The notes beneath the pieces are model-generated. The model made no database searches, was not told the origin of the DNA, and saw nothing but the letters and a program-made list of their open reading frames with translations. The translations under genes and the position numbers were made by a program. Positions 1,514-10,370 of a stretch of DNA of 64,000 nt are shown here, piece after piece (the stretch's first letter is position 1; every line of letters begins with the position of its first letter). Source of the stretch: Halobacteroides halobius DSM 5150 (GTDB lineage: Bacteria > Bacillota > Halanaerobiia > Halobacteroidales > Halobacteroidaceae); the NCBI RefSeq assembly GCF_000328625.1, contig NC_019978.1, positions 1,612,001 through 1,676,000 of the forward strand, given 5' to 3'.

Positions 1514-3043
1514 TTATTTAGCATAATTAACAGATCTAGTCTCTCGAACAACTGTAATTTTAATTTGACCTGGATACTCTAAATTATCCTCTATTTCTTT
1601 AGAAACCTCATAAGAAATCTTACTAGCAATATTATCATCGACTTCGTCCGGTTCAACTATAACCCTTACTTCACGTCCAGCTTGAATAGCATAGGCTTTT
1701 TCTACCCCATCAAAGGAATCAGCTATACTTTCCAATTTTTCCAACCGTTTAATATAAGATTCTAAAGTTTCTCTTCTAGCACCTGGTCTAGCTGCTGAAA
1801 CAGCATCAGCCGCAGCAACTAGTACTGCTACTATAGATTCCGCTTCTATATCACCATGATGAGCAGCAATAGCATGAATTACATCCTCATTCTCACCATA
1901 TTTTCGGGCCAAATCAACACCAATTTGAGTATGAGGACCTTCTACTTCATGATCAATAGCTTTCCCTAAATCATGCAATAATCCGGCTCGCTTAGCTACA
2001 TCAACGTTAACTCCTAACTCAGCAGCCATTATGCCTGATAAATGAGACACTTCAATAGAATGTTGTAATACATTTTGACCATAACTTGTCCGATACTTCA
2101 ATCTACCTAGTAATTTAATAATCTCTTTATTTAATCCATGCACTCCAGTATCAAAAGTGGCTTGTTCTCCTACATCATAAATTCTATCATCAATTTCTTC
2201 TCTAGCTTTCTCAACCATCTCTTCAATTCGAGCTGGATGAATTCTACCATCATCAACTAATTTCTCTAAAGCAATTCTAGCTGTTTCCCTTCTAATTGGA
2301 TCAAAACCAGACAAAATTACCGCTTCTGGAGTATCATCAATTATTAGATCAATTCCTGTTAAACTCTCTAAAGCTCTAATATTCCTTCCTTCTCTACCAA
2401 TGATTCGACCTTTCATTTCATCATTAGGTAAATTTACAACTGAAACAGTTGTTTCAGCCACATGGTCAGCAGCACAACGTTGAATAGCAGAAGAAATTAT
2501 CTCTCTAGCTTTTTTGTTAGCTTCTTCTTTAGTTTGAGCTTCCATATCTTTAATCTTTTTAGCTTTTTCATGTTTAATCTCATCTTCTAATCGATTTAGC
2601 AACAATTGCTTTGCTTCTTCAGTAGTCAAACCAGATAATTTCTCTAGTTTTTGTGCATGTTCTTCGTGTAATTTTTCAATTTCTGCTTCTTTTTGCTTAA
2701 TATTTTTCTTTCTTTCTTTAATATCTTTTTCTTGCTGGGTTAACTGATTAGATTTTCGTTCTAAATTATCTTCTTTTTTTACTAATCTACTCTCAAACTT
2801 CTGTAATTCATTTCGTCGCTCTCGACATTCATTTTCAACTTCTTCTTTTATCTCATGAGCTTGTTCTTTGGCTTCAACCAATGCTTCACGCTTTGTAGAT
2901 TCTGCCTCACGTTTTGCATTTTCTATAATTTTCTCTGCTTCTTTTTCAGCAGATCCGATCTTACTTTCACCAATATATTTTCTAATGGCAAAGCCAATAG
3001 TACCCCCCATTATTAAACTAACTATTATTAGTACATATTCCAA
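1514..3043 (-). CDS. rny: Ribonuclease Y
   Basis: RNase Y is the membrane-anchored endoribonuclease that starts mRNA decay in Firmicutes. The 509-residue protein has the full family layout: an N-terminal membrane segment (residues 1-20), a long charged coiled coil (about 25-190), a KH RNA-binding domain with [12 protein letters not shown] near residue 213, and an HD domain with HDLGK near residue 356. Translation starts at TTG: GGAGG lies eight bases upstream and no in-frame ATG is near. It ends in its own terminator just before spoVS. Confidence 0.97.
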
Positions 3044-3169
3044 CTACCACACCTCCATTCATTATTTAATTGTTACAGTAACTTTATTAACAGCAAGTTT
3101 ATATTCAAAACTAACTATTAAGCATCTACTGACCTAATATACTGTTATCATTTTAACTTTTTCTACTCC

Positions 3170-3823
3170 TTATGTCAAGCTAGTTATCTGACTCTTTCCA
3201 GTTTCCATTTTTACCTTAAAAGCTTGGTCTGCAATTTGACTTAAATGTTGTTGATGAGTAACTGTAATAATTTGGCGCTGAAAACGATCATTTACTGTTT
3301 TAAGAAATTTAGCTACATCAACAATATATTCTTCACTAACATGTTTAGCTGGTTCATCTAAAACTAACGGCCCACCTATTTTAGGTCGTTGTAGAGTTTC
3401 TAAAATAGCTACTCTTAATCCTAAAGAAACTACATCAACTACTCCCCCGCCTCTTGCATCTTGAGGAATATTTTTAATTTCTTGTTCACCAGCTTGAGAA
3501 ACAACATAAAACTCCGCTGAAAAACTATTTCGTTTCTTCTCAATCTCTATCTCAAAACTAAATTGAGCACCAAATACAGCTTGTAAAGCTTGGGTCACTA
3601 ATAATTCTATCTGTTGTCTAGCTTGTTCTCTAGCATATTCAGAAACCTCTTGTAAAAAAATATTTACTTGGTCTAACAATTCTTTTTCTTCTTGATACTC
3701 AGTTAACTCTTTTTCCTTCTTTTCCCGAACCTTTTTTAATCTCTTTTCTTCTCCCTTGCGCCTATGATATTCTTCCTTTTTAATCTCAATATCTTTTTCT
3801 AATTGCTTAATAATATCTTCCAT
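3170..3823 (-). CDS. SbcC/Rad50-type ATPase, C-terminal (Walker B) half
   Basis: The 217-residue protein begins with a charged coiled coil (residues 1-80). It then carries the C-terminal nucleotide-binding lobe of an SMC/Rad50 ATPase: an ABC-signature-like ARGGGVVDVVSLGLRVA near residue 122, Walker B plus D-loop LVLDEPAKHVSEEY near 153, and an H-loop-like ITVTHQQHL near 190. There is no Walker A. It is the natural complement of the protein at 4091-5539, separated only by the short coiled-coil gene at 3825-4088. The ATG follows the upstream stop codon by one base, so the genes are probably translationally coupled. It should pair with the N-half and the SbcD-like nuclease in DNA-end processing. 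Confidence 0.8.
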   Translation of the reverse strand: MEDIIKQLEKDIEIKKEEYHRRKGEEKRLKKVREKKEKELTEYQEEKELLDQVNIFLQEVSEYAREQARQQIELLVTQALQAVFGAQFSFEIEIEKKRNSFSAEFYVVSQAGEQEIKNIPQDARGGGVVDVVSLGLRVAILETLQRPKIGGPLVLDEPAKHVSEEYIVDVAKFLKTVNDRFQRQIITVTHQQHLSQIADQAFKVKMETGKSQITSLT

Positions 3824-3824
3824 C

Positions 3825-4088
3825 TTATTTCTTCCTTGTCTGGTCTAATATTTGATCATCAGGCAATAATTCTTGAGCCTTAGCTAAAGATGCTTGTAAT
3901 TTATTCTCTAATTCTTTAATCTCATCTTCTAACTCTTCAGGCTTAATACCATAATCTTCAATCTGCTTTAATAATTCTTTCTTTTTTTCTTTTAAATTAT
4001 CCAATCTATCCTCTGCTACTGCTTTTTTACGATTAGCCTTGTCTAATTTATCCTTTAATTGATTTATTTGCTTTTTATAATCACTCAT
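3825..4088 (-). CDS. Small coiled-coil protein between split SbcC halves
   Basis: An 87-residue, highly charged protein that is almost entirely heptad-like helix (KKQINQLKDKLDKANRKK and onwards). No catalytic motif is visible. It sits two bases after the N-terminal half of the split Rad50-like ATPase and one base before the C-terminal half. Its length and composition would fit a piece of the coiled-coil arm or a linker that helps the halves associate, but this is inference from position. I do not recognise a named family. Confidence 0.7.
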   Translation of the reverse strand: MSDYKKQINQLKDKLDKANRKKAVAEDRLDNLKEKKKELLKQIEDYGIKPEELEDEIKELENKLQASLAKAQELLPDDQILDQTRKK

Positions 4089-4090
4089 TA

Positions 4091-5539
4091 TTATTCCTCC
4101 CTATAATTATTAATAATTTGCTTTATTAGCTTTTGATCAACATTACTAAAACAGGTTGGACACTCACCTTTTTCTTTTAATAAATCACTATATTGCATAA
4201 GTAATCTTTCTCTTCTTTGACTCACATTTTTTAAATCCGCTACTACTTCTTCTAAACCTTGGTTAAGCTTCTTATTTTGTCTCTTAAAATCCATTGCTTG
4301 TTCTAACCTTTGAGTATACTTTTTTAAATTATTTAATAATCTTTCCTGCTGCTTAGCCGTCGGAAATAAAGTAAGAAAATTAGTTACTTCCTTTATTTTA
4401 ATCTGATAGTTATTTAAATCCATTTCTAACTTCTGTAACTTATCTAGATTATCCCTTAAATCTAAAGCTAAATTCAGCTCTTTTTTAACTTCTTTAGTGT
4501 TTTTTAACTTATCTAACAATTTAATATTATTCTTTAGTTCCAGAGTGGCTTGTTGATAATTACCCTCAACTTGTTTTAAATTAATTAAATCCTTAGCTGT
4601 AGCTTCAATTTTAGGTACTAGGTTAATTACTTGAGTTAAGTTTTTAAAATGGGCCAAGTATTCTTTACCTAACTTTAACCTTTGAGTAGTTTTATCAAGC
4701 TCCCCTTTAATCTCTTTTAAATTAGTCAACTGATCCATTTGTTGCTGAGAATCAACTAATAACTTCTTTATCTGTTTTAAATCATCTAATTGTGCTAATA
4801 ACTCTCTTAAACTTTCTTGTTCTTGTTTAATAGACTTCCAGTCTTGATAAAGAAGAGTTACCTGCTCTAATTTAGTCTTAGTCTCTTTTATCTCATGTAA
4901 TAACTTCTTTTCTTCTGTAATCTGTTGTGATAACTTGGGTAAGTCAGAAAATTCCTTTAATTCTTTATCACACTCATCTATTTCTGTAGTTAACCTTTTT
5001 TCCTCTTGTTGATATTGACGAATATCCTTATTAGTTTCTCGACTTGCTGAATCAACTAAATGAATATCTAATAACCGACCTAAAGCCTTAGCTCGAATAC
5101 TACCAGTTTGGTTTAATAAAAAAGCTCCATCCAATTGATAGTCTAAATTTATAGTTGTTTCGTAGTCTGTATCTAACTCAATTTTAGGCATTTGATGTAA
5201 CTTAGTAATCTTTTGTGGTACATCACGCCCAATTCTTTCAAAGACTTGCTTTTCACCTTGGGTATCAATTATTATATAGCCATTTTTACTAGGGGTTCGT
5301 CGTCTTACGATCTTAAATCCATTCTCTAGCTCAACTGTTACCCTACAGCTTTTATTTCCACTTCGAATATAATCATCACCCAAGGGCTCATTATACAAAA
5401 CCCACCTTAAAGCTCTAACAATAGCCGATTTCCCCTGGTCTGATGGACCAGTAATTACATTAAATCCTGAAGAAAACTCTAATCTAGTATCTTCATGTGA
5501 CTGAAAGTTCTCAAGTTCAATTGCTTTTATCATTTGCAT
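4091..5539 (-). CDS. SbcC/Rad50-type ATPase, N-terminal half ending at a zinc hook
   Basis: The 482-residue protein opens with IKAIELENFQSHEDTRLEF and a Walker A GPSDQGKSA near residue 32, typical of Rad50/SbcC. A very long coiled coil follows (about 160-450), and it ends 19 residues after CPTC (460-463), a CxxC zinc-hook motif. In ordinary SbcC the chain turns back after the hook and reaches Walker B; here the reading frame stops. The missing half is encoded at 3170-3823. GGGGGGAG lies nine bases before the ATG. It is directly downstream of the sbcD-like gene, as expected for an SbcCD pair that processes DNA ends and hairpins. Confidence 0.85.
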   Translation of the reverse strand: MQMIKAIELENFQSHEDTRLEFSSGFNVITGPSDQGKSAIVRALRWVLYNEPLGDDYIRSGNKSCRVTVELENGFKIVRRRTPSKNGYIIIDTQGEKQVFERIGRDVPQKITKLHQMPKIELDTDYETTINLDYQLDGAFLLNQTGSIRAKALGRLLDIHLVDSASRETNKDIRQYQQEEKRLTTEIDECDKELKEFSDLPKLSQQITEEKKLLHEIKETKTKLEQVTLLYQDWKSIKQEQESLRELLAQLDDLKQIKKLLVDSQQQMDQLTNLKEIKGELDKTTQRLKLGKEYLAHFKNLTQVINLVPKIEATAKDLINLKQVEGNYQQATLELKNNIKLLDKLKNTKEVKKELNLALDLRDNLDKLQKLEMDLNNYQIKIKEVTNFLTLFPTAKQQERLLNNLKKYTQRLEQAMDFKRQNKKLNQGLEEVVADLKNVSQRRERLLMQYSDLLKEKGECPTCFSNVDQKLIKQIINNYREE

Positions 5540-5545
5540 TCCTAC

Positions 5546-6505
5546 TTACTCCCCCCCTAATTTCTCTTGGGCTTGAGAGATTCTATTTAGGGCTTCTTTT
5601 TTTACATTATCATCAATTTGTTCATTACTAGCTACTTGTTCTAATATCTGCTCTACAGAGAAATATTTAAATTCACCTGCTGCTTTAATTGTTTGTGTGA
5701 AATCAGCTAATTTCTTTTCTCTAAATTTAGCAGCCTCTAAAGCACTTCTATCTAATACATCTCCCCCCGGTTTAGCCGAAGTTAATTTTCTAAACTTAAC
5801 CATAATTTCAGAATCTAATTCTATAATTGCAACTTGTGGTTGACGATTAATTTCTTTAATATCAGCACTCATTCTTACTAAAGAACCTGGATTAACAAAC
5901 TTAGTCCCATTAAATTCCTGTTCGCCAAAACCTAAGTGATAATGACCGGATATAATAATATCCGCTTCTGTTGTTACATCTTCAATTAAAGTATATCCTT
6001 GATCAAAGAATGGTCGATCTAATAACATACCATGAATCATATGTAATGCATAATCAACTTCTTGCTCCTTATTTATCATATAGGCACTGCCATCAGTATC
6101 AACATTATAATCAAAATGCTTCCCTGATAATTGCAATTTTAATTTGTCTTTTGTTAGTGTAATCGGTTCTTCAATTAAGTTTAATACTCCTGAATTAATT
6201 AATACCCCTAACATTGTTCGAGATAATGTATCAGGATTATGACCGTATAAATCGTGGTTCCCTGCTACTACATAGATTGGTATAGGATAACTACTTAAAA
6301 CCTTTAAGAAATCATTTACTACTGAGGGAGCTGGGTTAGGACGGTCAAAAACATCTCCAGCATGTAAAATAAAATCAATCTTCTCTTCTTGGGCTATCTC
6401 TTTTACTTCTTGTAATTTATTAATTAGCGTCTTTTTAAAATTATCCGTTCTCCTACTTGGAGTTGTACCTCTTATATGAGTATCAGACATTACTAATACC
6501 TTCAT
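5546..6505 (-). CDS. sbcD: SbcD/Mre11-type metallophosphoesterase
   Basis: Nuclease subunit of an SbcCD/Mre11-Rad50-like complex. The 319-residue protein carries the calcineurin-like phosphoesterase motifs in order: SDTHIRG near residue 7, AGDVFDRPNP near 49, AGNHDLYG near 81, an HGML histidine near 140 and GHYHLGFG near 187. These bind two metal ions, usually Mn2+. It lies between recX, which it nearly touches, and the split SbcC genes. The C-terminal 100 residues are helical and charged and probably form the ATPase-binding region. It is somewhat shorter than E. coli SbcD. The family assignment is firm; the exact substrate is inferred. Confidence 0.88.
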   Translation of the reverse strand: MKVLVMSDTHIRGTTPSRRTDNFKKTLINKLQEVKEIAQEEKIDFILHAGDVFDRPNPAPSVVNDFLKVLSSYPIPIYVVAGNHDLYGHNPDTLSRTMLGVLINSGVLNLIEEPITLTKDKLKLQLSGKHFDYNVDTDGSAYMINKEQEVDYALHMIHGMLLDRPFFDQGYTLIEDVTTEADIIISGHYHLGFGEQEFNGTKFVNPGSLVRMSADIKEINRQPQVAIIELDSEIMVKFRKLTSAKPGGDVLDRSALEAAKFREKKLADFTQTIKAAGEFKYFSVEQILEQVASNEQIDDNVKKEALNRISQAQEKLGGE

Positions 6506-6506
6506 C

Positions 6507-7148
6507 CTAGTCCTCCCCTACTAAATCTTCTAAAACCAGATCAATAACCTGGAATGAAAATCCTTTTCTTTTTAAAACTTGCTTTAACTTCCCCTTTTTT
6601 TCCCAAGTGGACAAACTACAATATCTAGCTTTCTTTTTATTAGCCAACTTAAAAGCCAATTGATACTCTAATTCAAAATTATATTCCTTATCTATTTCTT
6701 CTTCTATAATCTCTTTACTAATTCCTTTTTCTTGTAACTGTCTTCGTACCTTATAAGGGCCAAATCCTCTGGTGATTCTATCCCTTATCCAACTACCTGC
6801 AAATTCGCGATCATCGATATAATCTAGTCTATCCAAAATTTTAATAACTCTATTAATTACTTGTCCGTTAAATCCTTTCTTAGCTAATCTGTTTTTTAAC
6901 TCTTGGCGACTGCGCTGGCGATAAGATAATAATTTAAATGCAGCTTGCTTAGCCTTTCCTAATTCTTCTTCAACTAATAATTGCTCTAATAGCTCTTCGG
7001 TTAACTTTTGGCCCTTGCTTAATTTATATTCGTAGACTAATTTAGCATCTATCCCCAACAAAAATTGGCCATCTACAAAAATAGAACATCGTTGTTGATT
7101 ATTCTTCTGCTTTTTAATCTTAGTAATAGTTCCTTCTTGTTTAGTCAT
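6507..7148 (-). CDS. recX: RecX regulatory protein
   Basis: RecX modulates RecA by binding the RecA-DNA filament. The 213-residue protein has the usual repeats of three-helix units, including LLSYRQRSRQELKNRLAKKGF and DRLDYIDDREFAGSWIRDR, followed by a GFGPYKVRRQLQEKGI segment. The N-terminal 40 residues (IFVDGQFLLGIDAKLVYEY) match the Firmicute form. It lies 101 bases downstream of recA, beyond the recA terminator, so it relies on read-through or its own promoter. It is followed at once by sbcD. Confidence 0.93.
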   Translation of the reverse strand: MTKQEGTITKIKKQKNNQQRCSIFVDGQFLLGIDAKLVYEYKLSKGQKLTEELLEQLLVEEELGKAKQAAFKLLSYRQRSRQELKNRLAKKGFNGQVINRVIKILDRLDYIDDREFAGSWIRDRITRGFGPYKVRRQLQEKGISKEIIEEEIDKEYNFELEYQLAFKLANKKKARYCSLSTWEKKGKLKQVLKRKGFSFQVIDLVLEDLVGED

Positions 7149-7249: not shown

Positions 7250-8302
7250 TTAAGCAGACTCTTTTTCAGTTTCTTTATTCTCATCTGCTTCTTCTACTTC
7301 ATCTTCATCTAAAAAGCCTAACTTAACTTTGATTTTATTTTCTATTTCTTCTTTCATCTCTGGATTTTCATCTAAAAATTCTTTAGAATTAGCTCGACCT
7401 TGACCTAATGTAACATCATCACCATATGAATACCAAGCACCAGCCCGCTCAATAATACCATGTTCTTCTCCTAAATCTAGAACACAACCGGTTTGAGAAA
7501 TCCCTGTACCATACATAATATCAAATTTAGCTGTTTTAAAAGGAGAAGCTACCTTATTTTTAACTACCTTAACTTTAGTTCTATTACCTTGGTAGTCATC
7601 TCCATCTTTAATTGTTTTTCTCCGTCTAACATCTAATCTAACAGAAGAATAAAACTTAAGTGCTCGACCACCAGGAGTTGTTTCTGGATTTCCAAATCTA
7701 ACTCCAACTTTCATTCTAATTTGATTAATAAAGACACAAGTACATTTAGTCTTATTAAGGACTCCTGATAACTTACGCATTGCCTGAGACATTAATCGGG
7801 CTTGTAAACCAACATGAGCATCTCCCATTTCACCTTCAATTTCAGCTTTAGGTACTAAAGCAGCCACTGAATCTATCACAATTAAATCAATAGCACCACT
7901 TCTAGCTAATGCTTCACAAATTTCTAAAGCATCTTCACCAGTATCTGGCTGTGAAACAAGTAATTCTTTAGTATCCACTCCTAAATTCTTAGCATATTTA
8001 GGGTCTAAAGCATGTTCAGCATCAATAAAAGCAGCAACTCCACCTTCTGCCTGTAACTCAGCAATCATATGTAAAGCTACTGTTGTTTTTCCTGAAGACT
8101 CTGGGCCAAAAAGTTCAATAATTCTTCCTCTTGGAATACCTCCAACACCTAATGCTGCATCTAAAGATAAAGCTCCTGTTGAAATTGTCTCTACATCCAT
8201 TGCTTGGGCATCTTCTAATTTCATAATAGAGCCTTGTCCAAATTCCTTTTCGATATGATTTAAAGTCCGGTCTAAAGCCTTCTGTTTTTCATTCTTTGAC
8301 AT
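7250..8302 (-). CDS. recA: RecA recombinase
   Basis: RecA forms filaments on single-stranded DNA and drives homologous recombination and the SOS response. The 350-residue protein has Walker A GPESSGKT near residue 66, the Walker B segment [10 protein letters not shown] near 140, loop L1 around [12 protein letters not shown], and loop L2 near [20 protein letters not shown]. The C-terminal 25 residues are acidic ([16 protein letters not shown]), as is common in salt-adapted proteins. It has its own promoter (8354-8382) and terminator. I found no LexA/DinR box (GAAC-N4-GTTC) in the 96 bases upstream. Confidence 0.99.
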
Positions 8303-8398: not shown

Positions 8399-8974
8399 TT
8401 ATTCTAAATCAAATTCTGATAATGACTGATAAATTGGCCCTTTAGGAGTTAACGTACTTTTAATTAAAGTAATTTTATCCACTACTTCAGGAATCTCAAT
8501 TTTAAAAGGAAATTCTTTAAGTTTTTTACTAAGTAGTTGTAAATTATTTTCCTTAGGATTAACCCTCCCTAAAGTAATATGTGGTGTATATTCATGGTGC
8601 TTTTTTTTAAATCCTAAACTAATTAACTCATTTTCAATCTCTTGATTTATCTGCCCTAATTTCTGACTTCCTTTTTCTATTCCAACCCACATTGTTCGAG
8701 GATAATTCAAATTAGGAAAAGCACCTAACCCTTCTATATTAATAGTAAATGGTTTTTTATTATTCTGAGCAATTTTCTCTAATACTTGTCCTACTTCTTC
8801 TATTTCAGGTTTAGTTAACTCACCTAAGAACTTAATAGTAATATGAAAATTATACTTTTCCACCCACTTAACTTGTAATGAACAATCACGTAGTATATTT
8901 TTTACCTTATCTATTTTTTCTTTCGTAATCTCACTTAATTGAATCCCAATAAAGCACCTTATTTTATCACTCAT
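8399..8974 (-). CDS. thpR: RNA 2',3'-cyclic phosphodiesterase (LigT/2H family)
   Basis: A 191-residue 2H phosphoesterase. The two HxTxL-type catalytic motifs are visible: FHITIKFLG near residue 43 and HITLGRVNP near residue 131. Family members hydrolyse 2',3'-cyclic phosphates on RNA and can ligate tRNA halves in vitro. The start overlaps the end of the membrane phosphoesterase gene by eight bases (ATGAGTGA), so the two are translationally coupled. This cinA-side position upstream of recA is shared with other Halanaerobiales and Clostridia as I remember them. The physiological role is uncertain throughout the family. Confidence 0.9.
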   Translation of the reverse strand: MSDKIRCFIGIQLSEITKEKIDKVKNILRDCSLQVKWVEKYNFHITIKFLGELTKPEIEEVGQVLEKIAQNNKKPFTINIEGLGAFPNLNYPRTMWVGIEKGSQKLGQINQEIENELISLGFKKKHHEYTPHITLGRVNPKENNLQLLSKKLKEFPFKIEIPEVVDKITLIKSTLTPKGPIYQSLSEFDLE

Positions 8975-10370
8975 CTTGCTCCTCCTTTCTTTTATTTTTT
9001 ATCTGCTGCTTAATTAACTTTCTCTCTAACATAAATCCACCACGCCTACTATAAAATTTAATAATATCAATTGCTTTTAATTGATTACCAACTTTAGACT
9101 GATTATAATGCAATAAAGCAACAGAATAAGGAATCTCCTCTTTAGCTTCAAAACCTCTAATTCCTGCTGCACCAGTAGTACCTGCATCAACTACCATAGT
9201 TCCTTCTTTATTATAAATCTTAAAACTATGATCATGACCATGTAATAAAAGTGGGATTTCTCCTAATACACTTATAGCTTGTCTAAATTCATGAACTACT
9301 ACAATATCAGGAGATTTTTTTAGTTTAGTAACTAATTTATTGACAGTCTGTCTAGATTCCTGCATCTTTTCTCCTGTTAATGGCTTCATTTGTTTACTAT
9401 CAGCTGCTGGATCATCTACCCCCACAATCTTTAACCCTTTAATATTTATTACATTAGATTCTATAATAATTACATTATCAAATTCCTTCATTTGTTTAAT
9501 GATTGCAGGTGAATCATGGTTACCAGCTACAAAAATATAAGGAACCTTTAACTGATCTATCTTAGTCAATAAATTACCTTCTATAGGAGTTCCATAATCA
9601 GTGATATCTCCTGAGTCAATTACTAAATCAACATTAAAACTATCTACTAGTTGCATAACATATTTTAAAGCCACAGGGTTATTATGTATATCTGAAATAT
9701 GTAATACCTGCAAATCCCCTGTCACTTGATTTAGAGGTTGTAAAGTATCGACTCTCTTAAAAAGTTGTGCCATATTAGAAGCAATCAATTGAACTTCTGC
9801 TCCTAATTGCTCAATATTATCAATACCTTCTTGAATCAAACTAATCATCCAAGGGGCTGCTTCTAACATTCCTACAAAATTAGGATCATCAAAGGCAGAT
9901 AAATTATAAGTATAATAAGTTCCTAACCCTAAAGATAAAACAACAACTACTCCAATTACTAATCCTTTCATTACAGTAGCATGTGTTAATTCAACTGTCC
10001 CTGCCCCTACCATGCCTGCTAAAGCAGATAGTATCAATAATCTAATAATAAATAACTGCAGAATCTGTTTGGCCCTCTCTTTTAATAAAACAACCAATTC
10101 TTCTTTTTGTTGTACATTCTCAATAATAGAAGCTAGCTTTTCTTGGTGAATCGACTGCAAAGTTACCTCTAGGTCTAAAGGAGTTAGATGAGTATCAGCT
10201 ACTATCTTACCAATTGGAGGAAAATTTATTGTTGTAGATGGATGATAAGACAACTTTAAATCAAGTTCAATATTAAAAGCATTCAATTTATAAGTTTTAG
10301 TTGCAGCAAAATTAAGGATTAATAATACACCAAGCATTGACATAAATACTTTAATTACTAACTCCTGCAT
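8967..10370 (-). CDS. Membrane-anchored calcineurin-like metallophosphoesterase
   Basis: The 467-residue protein has two parts. Residues 1-215 hold an N-terminal membrane segment (5-25), an extracytoplasmic stretch, and two more membrane segments near 108-130 and 135-155. Residues 220-430 form a metallophosphoesterase with ISDIHNNP, DSGDITDYG, VAGNHDSP and LLHGHDHS in order, all the metal ligands of the family. The last 25 residues are very basic (KLIKQQIKNKRKEEQDE). It sits between cinA and thpR with short or overlapping junctions, so it belongs to that operon. The substrate is unknown. The intact active site argues for a real enzyme. Confidence 0.85.
   Translation of the reverse strand: MQELVIKVFMSMLGVLLILNFAATKTYKLNAFNIELDLKLSYHPSTTINFPPIGKIVADTHLTPLDLEVTLQSIHQEKLASIIENVQQKEELVVLLKERAKQILQLFIIRLLILSALAGMVGAGTVELTHATVMKGLVIGVVVVLSLGLGTYYTYNLSAFDDPNFVGMLEAAPWMISLIQEGIDNIEQLGAEVQLIASNMAQLFKRVDTLQPLNQVTGDLQVLHISDIHNNPVALKYVMQLVDSFNVDLVIDSGDITDYGTPIEGNLLTKIDQLKVPYIFVAGNHDSPAIIKQMKEFDNVIIIESNVINIKGLKIVGVDDPAADSKQMKPLTGEKMQESRQTVNKLVTKLKKSPDIVVVHEFRQAISVLGEIPLLLHGHDHSFKIYNKEGTMVVDAGTTGAAGIRGFEAKEEIPYSVALLHYNQSKVGNQLKAIDIIKFYSRRGGFMLERKLIKQQIKNKRKEEQDE

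Follow-up and report, generated by a model that had tools for sequence, protein, structure and literature searches.

A Rad50 divided among three genes beside an Mre11-like phosphoesterase in Halobacteroides halobius

In Halobacteroides halobius, the ATPase Rad50 (SbcC) is encoded in three separate genes that follow a gene for an Mre11/SbcD-like metallophosphoesterase (MPE). The split is real, widespread and old, and the split Rad50 is apparently working. We consider it probable, with a confidence of about 80%, that these genes encode an Mre11–Rad50-type end-processing nuclease with a three-piece Rad50, which stands in for canonical SbcCD.

The locus and its reading frames

The window, meaning the whole stretch of 64,000 nucleotides that was analysed, contains the following series of genes.

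7250-8302, minus strand: recA
6507-7148, minus strand: recX
5546-6505, minus strand: MPE, Mre11/SbcD-like metallophosphoesterase, 319 aa (Pfam PF00149, 9e-18)
4091-5539, minus strand: Rad50 N-half with N-lobe, long arm and terminal zinc-hook motif, 482 aa (PF13476; phrog_16465, 7e-77)
3825-4088, minus strand: cc, the third piece, a coiled-coil protein of 87 aa (conservation; phrog_18563, 3e-8; HMM and reciprocal HMM)
3170-3823, minus strand: Rad50 C-half with root coil and C-lobe, 217 aa (phrog_15167, 8e-63)
1514-3043, minus strand: rny

Only 6 bases separate MPE from the N-half, 2 bases the N-half from cc and 1 base cc from the C-half. Shine–Dalgarno-like sequences can be read directly before cc (GGGAGG, 4096-4101) and before the C-half (AGGAAG, 3831-3836). 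The frames of the N-half, cc and the C-half are shifted relative to one another, so that one sequencing error could not join them. The sequence-only reading of this locus had described intact frames with good junctions behind an sbcD-like gene, and the gaps, the Shine–Dalgarno-like sequences and the position of MPE upstream of the N-half agree with this. It had also described SbcC as split into two genes. The split stands, but it is three-way, as the 87-aa cc between the halves had been overlooked. Likewise, the proposed three-gene arrangement recurs in relatives with MPE, N-half and C-half, but cc makes it four genes.

Two further minus-strand genes lie near recA. A 467-aa protein encoded upstream of recA (8967-10370) combines N-terminal membrane-type segments with a C-terminal calcineurin-like phosphoesterase domain, and a 191-aa protein encoded next to recA (8399-8974) looks, by motifs read by eye, like a LigT/ThpR-type 2'-5' RNA ligase or phosphodiesterase.

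Homology of the parts to Mre11 and Rad50

Each part of the set finds its counterpart among solved structures. In profile searches, the N-half matches the Rad50 N-lobes 5f3w and 3aux, its last 70 residues match the Rad50 zinc hook (1l8d, 6zff), and the C-half matches the Rad50 C-lobes 3aux, 1ii8_B and 1f2t_B. The best matches of MPE in a single-sequence search are Mre11 structures, and MPE carries the phosphodiesterase motifs DTH, GDVFDR, GNHD and GHYH. The AlphaFold model of the C-half (pLDDT 95.3) consists of an 83-residue helix and the C-lobe and matches Rad50 1f2u_B in a fold search (TMt 0.82). For the N-half, the AF2 model (pLDDT 81.5, pTM 0.38) contains an N-lobe that matches Rad50 and SMC heads (Z 11-14), followed by helices at residues 159-195, 200-295, 308-345, 348-390 and 395-457, the hook and a short helix. 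The motifs and the arm are located as follows.

5426-5449, minus strand: Walker A GPSDQGKS, N-half residues 31-38 (GxxxxGK in 66/66 aligned N-halves)
4184-4948, minus strand: arm of five 47-residue modules and a partial one, residues 198-452 (autocorrelation)
4151-4162, minus strand: CPTC hook motif, N-half residues 460-463 (CxxC in 66/66; matches the Rad50 hook 1l8d/6zff)
3443-3454, minus strand: non-canonical signature RGGG in place of SGGE/Q (alignment to Rad50)
3350-3373, minus strand: Walker B GPLVLDEP (D156 and E157 in 85/85 C-halves)
3335-3346, minus strand: rewired D-loop KHVS (K160 in 85/85, S163 in 82/85 C-halves)
3254-3256, minus strand: H-loop His190 of VTH (84/85 C-halves)

The conservation of CxxC, Walker A GxxxxGK and Walker B DE goes far beyond chance, and Q135 of the Q-loop is likewise present in 66/66 aligned N-halves. 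The description of an N-half with Walker A that ends 19 residues past CPTC was right in motifs and coordinates; across loci, 4-44 residues follow the hook. The C-half indeed has Walker B and an H-loop and lacks Walker A, but its reported 'signature-like motif', RGGG, is strongly non-canonical. The features of the Mre11–Rad50/SbcCD superfamily are therefore found as Mre11-type phosphodiesterase motifs, an N-lobe with Walker A and Q-loop, a C-lobe with Walker B and H-loop, and a CxxC hook, with the exception of the ABC signature SGG(E/Q) and the D-loop LD.

A rewired ATP site

Both exceptions concern the ATP site. The signature Ser position is occupied by Arg in 53/54 chromosomal C-halves and by Lys in the remaining one, and it is more variable among viral C-halves. 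In the D-loop, Asp is replaced by Ser in 82/85 C-halves. Rad50 with the mutation S793R, in which Arg takes the place of the signature Ser, no longer dimerises or hydrolyses ATP (PMC7049730), so the split family has to run its ATP cycle in another way or compensate for the change. There are two options: the trans ATP contact is formed in another manner, or the enzyme cycles slowly. The unaltered Walker A, Q-loop, Walker B and H-loop speak against a dead enzyme.

Proposed complex

We infer that the split set forms a complex with ATPase and nuclease activity that binds Zn. The gene order would correspond to the order along one Rad50 chain, in which the N-half would provide the N-lobe, the ascending arm and the hook, cc the distal descending coil, and the C-half the proximal descending coil and the C-lobe. 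The N-lobe and C-lobe from two chains would join to one ABC head, an arrangement for which the homology, natural fusions of the lobes and published crystal structures of two-chain heads all argue. Two such heads are predicted to close on ATP over the Mre11-like dimer, and the CPxC motifs of two N-halves would share one Zn ion and so pair the arms at their tips. The predicted complex would replace canonical SbcCD in these cells.

The third piece and the geometry of the arm

The assignment of cc as the distal return coil of the Rad50 arm is the part of this model that has to be weighed most carefully. cc occupies the same place in 13/13 genomes of the order. In a set of short-armed phages the HMM missed it; on re-reading the gaps upstream of the C-half, a coiled-coil gene of 75-100 aa was found in 24/25 such loci and a diverged cc gene slightly further upstream in the 25th. 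An HMM built from the diverged phage cc found known cc genes as its first matches outside its own set. Of 84 such outside matches at E < 1e-3, 79 are known cc genes, and the remaining 5 are similar genes, not marked before, in additional phage loci. An absence of cc from short-armed phages was rejected on the basis of this gap reading, and the early idea that cc is confined to long arms was dropped. The only complete loci that lack cc belong to three genomes of a single family, which encode a fusion protein of ~700 aa.

Searches detected no sequence homology of cc to the Rad50 descending coil, the matches being generic coiled coils. It is therefore possible, if doubtful, that an Mre11–Rad50 head forms while cc is an accessory subunit, clamping for instance the arm root or the hook, and the N-half arm folds back on itself. 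The constant length of cc (about 77-85 aa), set against arms of about 150-360 residues, speaks for such a role, as does its loss exactly where arm and hook are lost. Against it, wherever all three genes are present they follow the order of a single Rad50 chain, and in the shortest-armed phages cc and the C-half root together equal the arm in length.

The arm itself is repetitive. Its modules start at N-half residues 198, 245, 292, 339 and 386, the hydrophobic autocorrelation is 0.74 at lag 47 and 0.71 at lag 94, and 0/2000 heptad-block shuffles reached the leucine signal. Distances between hook and Walker A cluster in steps near 383, 430 and 478 and are shorter in phages. For comparison with the arm we defined the return coil as the sum of C-half root, cc and post-hook tail, with head and arm boundaries taken from alignment to Rad50 structures. 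While the arm rises from 152 to 360 residues, this return coil stays at 146-161 residues (slope 0.04). Only at the short end do arm (mean 152 residues, n=3) and summed return coil (146) match; longer arms surpass the return coil by about 58, 106, 153 and 209 residues. In the class to which the window belongs, an N-half arm of ~314 residues is about double the available return coil of ~160 residues. The earlier proposal that the strand return is fixed at the hook by the split is not supported in that form, as the return is constant while the arm changes in steps of ~47 residues.

Since the return remains constant as the arm grows, the extra modules lack a correspondingly longer partner chain to pair with, and must either fold back or bind additional cc. 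With an arm that exceeds its return coil by ~150 residues in the window class, a plain two-stranded arm is an incomplete account. A modular arm, in which the N-half gains or loses 47-residue units, several cc line up as an exchangeable return strand and arm length changes, by evolution or by adjustment, independently of the ATPase, is a tentative idea that we regard as unlikely. If it were true, the family would, together with its rewired signature and D-loop, represent a Rad50 of different arm design and ATP cycle.

Mutual exclusion with canonical SbcC

A canonical SbcC is a single chain with both lobes, and here three open frames are found instead. A full-length SbcC elsewhere in the genome would have spoken against a functional split, and profile searches of the H. 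halobius genome with TIGR00618 and TIGR00619 revealed no second SbcC or SbcD. The sole TIGR00618 match in the genome lies elsewhere and scores 57.8 bits against a cut-off of 478.5, which few genomes reach; for SbcD, TIGR00619 gives 58.9 bits against the curated 77.65. A 650-aa partial SbcC match, the best other AAA_23 match, was rejected as a second SbcC because it is PbeC/DndD-like and lies beside PbeA. Its surroundings (contig 1, 2160500-2167500), with this PbeC/DndD-like ATPase (650 aa) and a PbeA-like helicase (720 aa), are a candidate anti-phage defence island, which would explain the partial match.

Across 398 genomes of the phylum, 64 carry the split family (threshold < 1e-20, all but one < 1e-35 as full rows) and 166 carry canonical SbcC (E <= 1e-25). 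Both systems occur together in 2 genomes compared to 26.7 expected. Canonical SbcC is present in 2/64 genomes with the split family and in 164/334 others (Fisher 5e-14, with P inflated by shared ancestry). In one of the two genomes with both systems (G153; the other is G430), the split copy lies in a phage-like gene order.

The exclusion also bears on whether the set does the work of SbcCD. A Rad50-like complex with another job, such as phage-derived recombination, replication support or defence, could merely resemble SbcCD; the family is abundant in phages and prophages, many lineages of the C-lobe tree are viral, signature and D-loop are non-canonical, and the curated SbcC and SbcD cut-offs are not reached. 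We regard this as quite improbable, given that the chromosomal copies, which avoid canonical SbcC, lie either upstream of addB or together with recA, recX and rny, and that no PADLOC model matched well, the best matches being weak and partial (LmuB for the N-half, 4e-16; mad3 for the C-half, 5e-10).

Separate genes, unlinked halves and fusions

The order MPE-N-cc-C is found between recA and rny in 13/13 genomes of the order. Relatives with the set include Halanaerobacter, Natroniella, Orenia, Tepidanaerobacter, Thermoactinomyces, Caloramator, Tissierella, Shouchella clausii and Alkalihalophilus pseudofirmus. HMMs recognise all four parts in 139/189 loci from chromosomes, phages and plasmids. 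The main gene orders are MPE-N-cc-C (88 loci), N-cc-C-MPE (37) and N-MPE-cc-C (11), and N precedes cc and cc precedes C in every cluster carrying all three.

Five Clostridia, namely Acetivibrio, Pseudobacteroides and three known from metagenomes, carry the C-half at a separate place, away from MPE-N-cc. It follows folD in all five and precedes rny in four, which means that both halves persist unlinked. In Pseudobacteroides, MPE-N-cc and the C-half lie about 1.09 Mb apart on one contig. The N-half and C-half matches of Microbacterium phage Magritte are also far apart. A viral scan with the C-half sequence alone gave no matches, and an alignment query was needed to find the viral copies.

In three chromosomal relatives, the N-half lies in two open frames (L240, 1926-3440; L241, 4247-5699; L246, 4161-5620), which are either sequencing errors or real breaks. 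Although these cases could be taken to favour it, a sequencing error, frameshift or decaying sbcC as the origin of the split itself can be dismissed, as the same layout in 13/13 genomes of the order and >120 other loci, the unlinked halves in five genomes and the strong conservation of the motifs rule it out and uphold the sequence-only reading of a stable natural split.

Three genomes of one family encode MPE, N-lobe and C-lobe in a single chain of ~700 aa that is devoid of arm, hook and cc.

L250, 4152-6254: ~700-aa fusion
L251, 2764-4818: ~700-aa fusion
L252, 4083-6170: ~700-aa fusion

This protein is a minimal armless Mre11–Rad50. It connects the three domains as members of one complex and associates cc with the arm, although the three fusions count as a single lineage. 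The L250 fusion, the one fusion locus examined by Pfam, lies upstream of addB. Fusions of MPE and N-half are found in L012, L060 and L062.

A quick C-lobe tree, in which many forks are open, sets the family apart from canonical SbcC. Viral lineages show the greater diversity in this tree, the chromosomal copies mostly group close together, and the ~700-aa fusions fall inside the split family. These observations fit an old split, possibly phage-born, that later became fixed in chromosomes and was followed by a single secondary fusion. In Bacillus phage vB_BboS-125, an AP2-domain gene (L009, 6416-6988) lies between the N-half and cc and is perhaps a homing endonuclease. Such elements are able to fragment genes, but the case stands alone.

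Relation to known systems

The split set shares with canonical SbcCD/Mre11–Rad50 an MPE nuclease and an ABC ATPase built from N-lobe, arm, CPxC hook and C-lobe, encoded in adjacent genes. It differs in that its ATPase is distributed over three polypeptides, whereas SbcC of E. coli is one chain (TIGR00618, with TIGR00619 for SbcD), and in its 47-residue modular arm, R-GGG signature, K-H-V-S D-loop and scores below the curated SbcC and SbcD cut-offs. It would work like Mre11–Rad50, yet lies outside the SbcC equivalog. The Rad50 heads used in crystallography (1f2t, 1f2u, 1ii8) likewise form one ABC head from separate N- and C-lobe chains. Those heads are laboratory-made, with the arm largely or fully removed and the hook missing, whereas the split described here is natural and keeps arm and hook. 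T4 gp46/gp47 is also a phage-encoded Rad50/Mre11 pair, but gp46 is a single chain, and the N-half matches the phage SbcC-like PHROG 77 much more weakly than PHROG 16465. PHROG 16465, 18563 and 15167 represent the same three proteins (e.g. gp32, gp34 and gp35 of vB_BboS-125), but are catalogued apart as 'exonuclease', unknown and 'ATPase' and not as one Rad50. In the literature searched, with most subscription papers outside its scope, we found no description of a split SbcC/Rad50.

The L062 sequence (218,948 bp), which we take to be Bacillus phage 0305phi8-36, encodes its MPE–N-half fusion followed by a separate cc and C-half (2636-6672). Fusions of nuclease and ATPase, as they occur in the split family, are also known from the Mre11/Rad50 fusion proteins of Yoshida et al. 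2011 (PMC3175470), who described for phage 0305phi8-36 a fusion without one P-loop segment. The C-half of L062 is likely the segment reported missing in 2011, and the split thus offers an explanation for it.

In a single-chain Rad50, the arm has to ascend, turn at the hook and run back. Here, the strands are separated and kept apart in many lineages. With arm, hook and strand return in separate genes, the contribution of each becomes testable with ordinary genetics. One lineage has shed arm, hook and cc yet kept nuclease and head. These findings further suggest that the split version may exist in many Bacillota that are scored as being without SbcCD.
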